From Asterias amurensis (Eukaryota; Echinodermata; Asteroidea; Forcipulatida; Asteriidae), in NCBI RefSeq assembly GCF_032118995.1, contig NC_092668.1:11387501-11451500 (forward strand): a stretch of DNA of 64,000 bases. The letters run 5' to 3'. Shown here in pieces: positions 24,508 through 30,464 of this stretch (positions are counted from its first letter, which is position 1; each line of letters begins with the position of its first letter). The notes below the pieces were generated by a model. That model was not told the origin of the DNA and did not search any database. It was given only the letters and a program-made list of their open reading frames with translations. The translations under genes were made by a program, and so were the position numbers.

Positions 24508-27500
24508 ATGAGCGAAAAAGTAATAATGAAGGGTACCCTTAAGGGTCACAATGGATGGGTTACCCAAATTGCCACAACACCGGCATTTCCCGACATTGTT
24601 CTATCGTCATCAAGGGGTAAGTTTCATCTAATTTATATTTGTGTACATTTTCTATGGAGTTGACACGTTCTTTTCATTTAGCGTAAAATAAATTGATCAA
24701 CGCATATGCGATGGAACATCCATAAGGATTATGATTTTGAATCATTATTGCTCATTATTAATTATATAAATAGAATCAATACACGATATGTTCATGCATT
24801 GGTAACTATTTTTATGTCATATTTATAATTTTATTTTGACTTTAAATTGTGTGTACAGATTCAGAATATGCAGGCAAAAAGAATGGGACCCACAAAAAAC
24901 CGAAATCCCAATCTGGCAATCTAATTATTACGAGGGGGTCTGAGGTGTTGGTAGGCCTTTTAAAAGACATAAAGATTGCCAACAAGACTCTAGTTTCTCT
25001 CTCCAATGTACAGTGTATATAATGTTCAATTTGGCTTGTCCTACACTTTTATTGCACCACTGGTCACGGTGTCTTGCACAGCACATCATCCCAGTTTAGC
25101 TCTTACCAGCTGTAAAGGGATTACTCCATCATGATCAAGTATCAAGTCCGCTTATTGGTCCACCCACATAGCCCCACTTTTGTTGCCAAATCTGAATCTT
25201 TGGCCACCACCACACGATGTCCAGCCCAATTTTTTTCTAGCGTTAAAAAATTGTGTTTTCTTTACGACGGGCTCGGCGGCAGTTTAAAACAGCTAAATAG
25301 TAAATGTGTTCACTTTCCTCATGTATGATCAGATGTTTAGATAAATACCATTTACAAAATTTTCAACTTCCTCCGAGTTACCTCGCTCTCTACTGAGCGC
25401 AGCCATTTTGGAATGATCCCAATTATGCCAATCAAATCATGACGTCATCAGCCACAGGATCAGCCAGCAAGGCTGTGGCCGGAGCGGACACATAAAAAGC
25501 AATAATTGATTTGAAATGTTTACACCGCACTCCGCCCACACAGTGACAGAAATATCCCTAACATTGGGGGGAAAAAGGCCCATCATCATCATCATGTCCA
25601 TTGATTGGTGCAATGTTTTCACATTTTTTAAACCATGCTTGTGGTTTTTGTCTGTCGAAAATTTAAGTTGAGTCTTAGAGTCACCTCTTCGGCCTAGCCA
25701 ATGGCGTGTGGGGTGCTAAAGACTCATAAAGTAAACTCTGGTTTAATTCTCTGGCCACCTTTGCTAGTTCTGGATCCAGACACCCAAACCAGAAACATTT
25801 ACCTACAAACAAAACATTCTTTCATACACCCCACCCCCCAAAAAGGGGGAAATATGTGTATCTGAGTGAAAGATTTTTAGTTAAAAATATGCAAAATTCT
25901 TTTGCCAGAAATGCCCCTGTTTAAAAATCCATAAAACTCTTTAAAAATAAAAGTGTGTCAACAAATTTTGAATCTCCAAATCACACCTCAAGGCAAGTTT
26001 GGGAAACTCAAATTTCTGTGGTGTTCGTTTATGAGTGCTGCAGCCAGCATAGTGGTTGGTTAACTGCTTTCACCTCGTTGAAAGTGGACGTATTTGACAT
26101 TCTGATGAAATAGCTCAAAGGCTGAGCGACAATAGGCCTAAATGACAACACAACAAAGCAAGGCAAGATTTGGCCTTAGAACGACTCTGCTAGGGACGAA
26201 ATGTCAGGCCATTAACTATTTTTGCAATTATACCATTGGTCCTTTTGGTTGGTAAGCAGCTTGCAACATCTAATTCTATTTAAATAATGTGGCAGTTCTT
26301 TCCATTTTTCTCACCAAGTATACTCTGTATACAACCTAAATCAGCATTATGTTTGACATAAACTAATCTATGACCCCACTTATAAATAGCGTCTTGTGTT
26401 TTTGTATTCTAGACAAGTCTGTCATCATGTGGAAGCTGACCAGAGAAGAAAACAATTACGGAGTCCCCAAGAAAGCTCTGAAGGGTCACAGCCATTTTGT
26501 GTCGGACATTGTGATGTCATCCGATGGTCAGTTTGCTCTCTCCTGTTCTTGGGATAAGGAACTACGTCTCTGGGATCTTGCCACGTGAGTTGGGCTAAGT
26601 CTTCTTATTAATATTATTGGCCTTGTACATTATTATTTTTCAACTCCCTGTGCCCCACCCCCAACACCTACCTTCCACTCTGATCTGTCACCTAGGTGTA
26701 ATTTTATAGAGGTGCTGAAGCAGAATAAAAGCTGCTTAATATTTTTCTGTCAAGCAAAAATAAGCAGGATACTGGCTACAAATGGTACATTTGACATGGT
26801 CTTCTGGCTTGTAACCTAAATTCTGGTAAGCATAATTGTGTTGTGCTTAGCCACTTTTTGCAATTAAGCAGCGTTATGAAAGAAATTGGACCATGTTTTT
26901 TGTTCTCATCGCTTGAGTCTTAGAGTTACCTCTTCGGCCTAGCCCTTGGCGTGTGTGGTGCTAAAGACTCATAAAGTAAACTCTGGTTTTATCCTCTGGC
27001 CACCTTGAACGTTGTGGATCCAGACACCCAAACCAGAATAGTCATTACAAAATATCTTTTGATTGGAGTAAATTTTTCTTGTTGTGTGTTTTAAAAATGA
27101 AAATAAATGAAACAATTGTTGGTTCATTGCAGAGGAAAGACGACGAGACGCTTTGTGGGACACACCAAGGATGTCCTCAGCGTGGCTTTCTCTCAGGACA
27201 ATCGCCAGATTGTCTCTGGCTCTAGGGACAAGACCATCAAGCTGTGGAACACCCTGGGAGTCTGCAAGTACACCATCCAGGTAAAGAAAGCATGAGTATA
27301 CTGCTTTATATAGGATTCGAGGCATTGTATGTTTAGGTATCAGCTATCAATGTATATTTGGTTTGGGGTAACACCATGTGTGTCTCTGTTTGCCAGGTAG
27401 AGTTTGTCCGGTTGTCGGGAGAAAAATACCAGTCCCCGATGACTAGAGCAAGCTAGTCGAAACATTGAGACCAATTCAAGAACTGACTCTGAGGTAGTGC

Positions 27501-30464: not shown

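Follow-up and report, generated by a model that had tools for sequence, protein, structure and literature searches.

H/ACA snoRNAs are stable RNAs bound by dyskerin, NHP2, NOP10 and GAR1, whose guide pockets lie about 14 nt from a box, and genes of the SNHG type are non-coding hosts of snoRNAs. The RACK1 gene of vertebrates carries the C/D snoRNA SNORD96A. As the first-pass annotation of the DNA studied here had stated, C/D snoRNAs do reside in this host among vertebrates, U95 (SNORD95) being placed in intron 6 of chicken GNB2L1 (RACK1) (PMC2653536). Animal host genes commonly hold snoRNAs in several introns, one per intron (PMC11028025), and in sponges an H/ACA snoRNA of RPL13A was duplicated in cis (PMC3412847). 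In human, the H/ACA guide SNORA3b was assigned to 28S Psi3899 and Psi3938 (PMC12931454), both of which are pseudouridines (100% and 93%, PMC6182160, Table 1). The chicken table lists two ACA3 homologues in RPL27A, in intron 3 for 28S-3409 (7+3 pairs, 5' pocket) and in intron 2 for 28S-3448 (5+4 pairs, 3' pocket), two sites 39 nt apart, like 3899 and 3938 (PMC2653536).

The window, i.e., the whole stretch of DNA analyzed (64,000 nt), corresponds to positions 11387501-11451500 of contig 21 in the genome of the sea star Asterias amurensis (491.5 Mb, 23 contigs). It contains a RACK1 coding region (24508-30464, plus strand, 317-aa translation), for which the gene model gives seven coding exons, all on the plus strand: 24508-24616, 26413-26584, 27133-27280, 28277-28372, 28965-29075, 29517-29657, and 30288-30464. 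A protein search retrieved a 1341-nt JGI contig encoding a protein identical to it over 317 aa, which implies a spliced message and supports the gene model; named proteins among the best 120 of 4171 matches had identities of at most ~82%. Searching with Rfam in gathering and E-value modes detected no C/D snoRNA in this RACK1. Other features of the window were two tRNA matches (53507-53579, 52.4 bits; 45244-45318, 32.7 bits), an inverted-repeat element in intron 3 (27350-27736; arms of 55 nt with 87% complementarity, separated by 277 nt), and a third short repeat that looks like a dispersed element (26178-26234 vs. 30225-30281 in introns 1 and 6, 57 nt, 84%, with a 29-nt piece at 54675-54703).

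Ten H/ACA-like units, forming two families of five (B1-B5 and A1-A5), were recovered in the window by blastn, all on the plus strand, with their ends set at the 3' box +3. The six coding introns of RACK1 hold one each, in the order B, B, A, B, A, A: B1, of SNORA3 type, in intron 1 (25669-25800; AAAGTA at 25728, ACA at 25795), B2 in intron 2 (26914-27043; H box at 26973, ATA at 27038), A1 in intron 3 (28033-28175; AGAATA at 28095, ACA at 28170), B3 in intron 4 (28706-28837; H box at 28765, ACA at 28832), A2 in intron 5 (29256-29398; AGAACA at 29318, ACA at 29393), and A3 in intron 6 (29772-29914; H box at 29834, ACA at 29909). The remaining four (B, B, A, A) lie in a downstream duplicate of part of the gene, B4 and B5 in its first and second intron-4 copies (32850-32981 and 33623-33754), A4 in its intron-5 copy (34175-34317), and A5 between its exon copies 6' and 6'' (34733-34875); the sequences of B4 and B5 are identical. 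B1, B2, and B3 (introns 1, 2, and 4) share little similarity outside the unit proper. The 3' box is ACA in nine of the ten units and ATA in B2, which in the alignment also has an altered 3' pocket. The distance to the acceptor is 612 nt for B1, 89 for B2, 127 for B3, 101 for A1, and 118 for A2, while A3 lies 373 nt from the real acceptor and 110 nt from a relic one, which belongs to a remnant of exon 6 inside intron 6 (30023-30064, plus strand; blastn, 88% to exon 6 over 42 nt). The first-pass annotation had described one H/ACA unit in every RACK1 intron, this same order, and a position 89-127 nt upstream of an acceptor for five of the six units (intron 1 excepted), all of which we reproduced for the coding introns; the four copies in the duplicate, outside the coordinates it had given, and the SNORA3 identity of family B (below) go beyond it. 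With the duplicate included, an acceptor (real, relic, or duplicated) follows nine of the ten units at a distance of 89-133 nt.

Both strands of the window were scanned with a descriptor (two hairpins, ANANNA, and A[CT]A; 5828 box positions, 98 candidates) that had been loosened after a stricter pass, in which B1 and B2 ranked first and second and the other eight units were missed because the hinge of family A is long and the closing stem of B3-B5 is mismatched. All ten units fit the loosened version, minimum free energy (MFE) folds agree with the two-hairpin architecture with hinge and short tail, and an ANANNA H box, which the scan requires, is found in each of them, in line with the two hairpins, hinge H box, and 3' ACA/ATA described earlier. 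The units took ten of the twelve best places (A5, A1, A4, A3, and A2 at ranks 1, 2, 4, 5, and 6; B1, B2, B4, B5, and B3 at ranks 7, 9, 10, 11, and 12; scores - 55.1 to - 38.5), the best scores in eight shuffled windows being - 31.0 to - 38.9. Family A (- 47.9 to - 55.1) thus lies beyond all eight shuffles, and B3-B5 (- 38.5 to - 39.0) equal the best one, so that the case for family B is carried by its Rfam match and not by the descriptor. Ranks 3 and 8 went to H/ACA-like folds on the minus strand that are not copies of either family (57203-57037, score - 53.2; 14427-14259, score - 39.8). The MFE z-scores of the units were - 2.1 to - 4.1 (0 to 9 of 300 shuffles equally low), and covariation amounted to one compensated pair in family A and none in B, the copies varying too little to be informative. 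One lower-stem pair of family B (28776/28828 in B3, 32920/32972 in B4, and 33693/33745 in B5) is U-A in B1 and B2, A-A in B3, and U-U in B4 and B5, i.e., the same pair was hit by two different single changes.

A covariance-model scan, which the first-pass annotation had named as a check, bore it out for one family: in E-value mode RF00334 (SNORA3/SNORA45) matched all five B copies over positions 1-131 of 131 (E 1.8e-7 to 0.0021), family A remained unmatched, and at the gathering threshold Rfam reported no snoRNA in the window, only the two tRNAs. The best score (B1, 50.2 bits, E 1.8e-7) is 0.8 bits short of the gathering score of 51, which is the curators' reporting threshold and no biological feature; B3 reached 42.4 bits, B4 and B5 43.6 bits each, and B2 33.2 bits, 17.8 below that score. 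Since family B stays below it, we term it a SNORA3 homologue and not a listed member. Judged from its sequence, family B is a homologue of SNORA3/ACA3, alike in the full-length match, the two hairpins, and the fit of its pockets to the SNORA3b sites (weaker for the 3' pocket), and different in its five copies, its scores below the gathering threshold, and its host, RACK1 instead of the RPL27A recorded for chicken (PMC2653536). The C. elegans H/ACA snoRNA ceN100 (RF01607) also matched four of the five B copies (best 35.9 bits, E 8e-4), far below its own gathering score of 80.

For the target search, the 18S and 5.8S sequences were the genome's own; the 28S stretch of the rDNA unit taken from it reads N, and human segments served as the 28S sequence. 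The two human segments that contain the three sites discussed below agree with the published table at 38/38 and 45/45 modified nucleotides (PMC6182160). At least 19 copies of 5.8S mark rDNA arrays on contig 12 of the assembly (19.6-19.9 and 21.8-21.9 Mb), and a search of viral contigs for eukaryotic rRNA with one pattern gave no match. Requiring at least 9 contiguous pairs, the search found Psi3899 for B1 and B3 and missed both Psi3938 and the family A site, which entered the lists once one mismatch and energies were allowed. The 5' pocket of B1, B2, and B3 pairs at Psi3899 with 8+3 pairs, 13 nt from the box, and among 43 known human 28S Psi sites (a restriction chosen after the Psi4659 match described below had been seen, and applied to three of five B copies and one of five A copies) Psi3899 is its top choice (P 0.012 for B1, 0.019 for B2, and 0.020 for B3). 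At Psi3938, the 3' pocket of the same copies forms 6 pairs with one mismatch plus 4; this is the best known site for B1 and B2, weakly so (P 0.157 and 0.230); in B3, Psi4331 scores higher. When all U positions were scanned for B1, another 28S U outscored Psi3899 and an 18S U outscored Psi3938. By complementarity, the 5' pocket of family B thus fits Psi3899 well and the 3' pocket fits Psi3938 more weakly.

Family A has no counterpart in Rfam, no snoRNA family being reported at the five A positions up to E 10. Of the 61 columns of its 5' hairpin, one varies (in the loop), against 3 of 17 for the hinge and 9 of 59 for the 3' hairpin. The left arm of the 5' pocket forms 8 contiguous pairs adjoining U4659 of human 28S, and the right arm, partly made of lower-stem bases, 7 with one mismatch, 14 nt from the box in A1. 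U4659 is a pseudouridine in human (87%, PMC6182160, Table 1). Under the same restriction to 43 known sites, chosen after this match had been seen and evaluated for A1 only, Psi4659 is the top choice (P 0.027), close to the value of the B 5' pocket; it is also the best site in the all-U scan of A1 and A3, where P is 0.42. The pairing is suggestive, and Psi4659 is the likely target of this pocket. No candidate for the 3' pocket was convincing (P 0.97, 0.94, and 0.73 in all-U and known-site scans), and the portion of the chicken table searched under four prefixes lists no guide at the chicken position computed for Psi4659. The earlier proposal that the units are pseudouridylation guides is supported for the B 5' pocket, which fits a known Psi site, and for family A one of two pockets has a candidate target. 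The anatomy of the units, the number of copies found, the identity of family B, and the complementarity of the pockets are established by these results. A chiefly cis-acting role in RACK1 splicing or expression, instead of guiding rRNA modification, would agree with the near-constant spacing to the acceptors and with the described case of a snoRNA that affects the splicing of its host (PMC11028025); we regard it as very unlikely, as the strongest conservation is found in the 5' hairpins with the guide pockets and the homologue of family B guides rRNA modification.

DNA searches of the genome (491 Mb) found five copies of family A and five of family B, counts that are lower bounds, all of them at the RACK1 locus. 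The genome scan with RF00334 reported B1 and B3 only and scored 42 of 23607 candidates; with so few scored, its silence elsewhere carries little weight and the DNA searches are the better count. This number bears on whether the repeats could instead be SINE-like or inverted-repeat elements, mobile or structural in nature, that fold by accident, a reading to which the repetition of the units and the inverted-repeat element of intron 3 lend something. Five copies found per family at a single locus and the SNORA3 match of family B speak against it, and we reject it on the copy number found, leaving it the faintest chance of all the readings weighed here. The RPL27A gene of this genome was located through its last exon, which we take to be that of RPL27A from the C-terminus of the human protein. 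No Rfam snoRNA was found up to E 1 in the 9.9 kb around it; no SNORA3 being detected there, the host in this genome differs from that of chicken. Downstream of that last exon, at a distance of ~2 kb, lie two matches to the histone 3' UTR stem-loop (L017:7558-7603, minus strand, and 7696-7741, plus strand), one of them above the gathering score. H/ACA guides in RACK1 remain the best reading of the locus, given the SNORA3 homology and the Psi3899 fit of family B, but the set is nothing new in kind: going by the Rfam comparison, only family A is absent from the database, and family B represents the ACA3 guide, already known from another host. None of the titles listed in a literature search concerns H/ACA RNAs in RACK1, which does not imply their absence in print.

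The downstream copy is a partial tandem duplicate of RACK1 exons 4-6 (32345-35260, plus strand), delimited by blastn, splice sites, and reading frames. It consists of three parts, 32345-33303 (matching 28220-29166, 87%), 33307-35026 (matching 28414-30064, 85%), and 35139-35260 (matching 31138-31261 downstream of RACK1, 88%), and contains the exon copies 4', 5', 5'', 6', and 6''. An acceptor AG is kept in all five and a donor GT in four (6'' has lost it), and the frame is open in 4', 5', and 6'' and broken in two of five (5'' is shifted; 6' has stops and insertions). Blastn detected no counterpart of exons 1-3 or 7, and with two frames broken and the donor of 6'' lost, the duplicate cannot encode RACK1. 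The exon 6 relic of intron 6 and 6' have a small insertion in common that exon 6 lacks, from which it follows that the doubling of exon 6 with its A unit probably preceded the larger duplication. A false duplication in the assembly is unlikely, given the different layout and an intron divergence of 10-17%.

Between gene and duplicate (gaps excluded from mismatch counts), the units diverge by 1.5-6.3% vs. 10-17% for the intron flanking them on both sides: 2/134 vs. 45/441 mismatches for B3/B4 (Fisher P 5e-4), 2/134 vs. 79/457 for B3/B5 (P 1e-7), 9/143 vs. 46/294 for A2/A4 (P 0.005), and 6/143 vs. 38/223 for A3/A5 (P 1e-4). The units, being less diverged than their flanks, are constrained or homogenised. 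In the 128 nt that directly follow B3, a single position distinguishes the gene from the first duplicate, so conservation beside B3 extends past the snoRNA. Compared with the exon copies, the units are not significantly less diverged (P 0.49 and 0.10). From A1, both A4 and A5 differ at 2 of 141 positions, and A2 and A3, in RACK1, at 8 and 5, one of the changes in A2 breaking the upper stem. These comparisons bear on the possibility that most copies are redundant or dead, i.e., that one or two per family work, the others, especially those of the duplicate, being untranscribed pseudogenes whose likeness stems from recent duplication or gene conversion. The state of B2 (no ACA, changed 3' pocket) and of A2 (8 differences, the broken stem), the identity of B4 with B5, and exon copies as similar to the gene, within error, as the units are would all accord with it. 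Against it, divergence in the duplicate has affected the intron flanks and spared the units, and A4 and A5 are closer to A1 than A2 and A3 are, opposite to what decaying duplicate copies would show. We give this explanation a small chance, larger than that of cis action. Whether the duplicate, having lost its coding role, survives as a non-coding snoRNA host can be suggested only tentatively, and we hold it to be somewhat doubtful. Like genes of the SNHG type, it has snoRNAs in its introns, can no longer code for its protein, and retains most splice sites; it differs in being only a partial gene copy, the transcription of which is putative.

The explanation that we favor, and consider quite probable as a whole, is that the units are intron-encoded H/ACA snoRNA genes, locally multiplied, that guide 28S pseudouridylation. 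Local duplications within RACK1 and its partial tandem copy just downstream would have multiplied the units; splicing of RACK1 would release lariats, debranching and trimming of which would yield RNAs of ~130-145 nt, the H/ACA proteins on the units shielding them while the remaining intron is trimmed, and the mature RNA would join dyskerin and its partners. Family B would then direct 28S pseudouridylation at the Psi3899 (5' pocket) and Psi3938 (3' pocket) positions, and the 5' pocket of family A most likely at the Psi4659 position, with its 3' hairpin as a scaffold. Transcription, processing, protein binding, and modification of the units are what we infer by analogy with known H/ACA genes. 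Multiplication may raise the dose or be a tolerated redundancy, B2 and A2 indicating that single copies may decay.

Compared with the systems described so far, the locus shares its host gene with the vertebrate C/D snoRNAs of RACK1, which are box C/D methylation guides and not H/ACA RNAs as here. With the sponge RPL13A it shares copies in neighbouring introns of a translation gene; two copies are reported there, and the cited portion of that work makes no mention of a decayed host duplicate (PMC3412847). Its kind is ordinary, i.e., a known guide and an Rfam-absent family amplified in a translation gene, and it is the arrangement and its evolution that are interesting. The difference in host of an old guide is documented (RPL27A in chicken, RACK1 here), ten guide copies are tied to a single ribosome-associated gene, and an H/ACA family new to Rfam offers a testable 28S site. 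The duplicate provides a natural case for asking if a host copy that is itself dead can be preserved by the snoRNAs it carries. Were it a non-coding host, a fragment of a ribosomal gene would have been caught in becoming a snoRNA host gene, its exons partly decaying and its four snoRNAs, among them the family A copies with the least divergence, staying intact, at the one locus where either guide family was detected.
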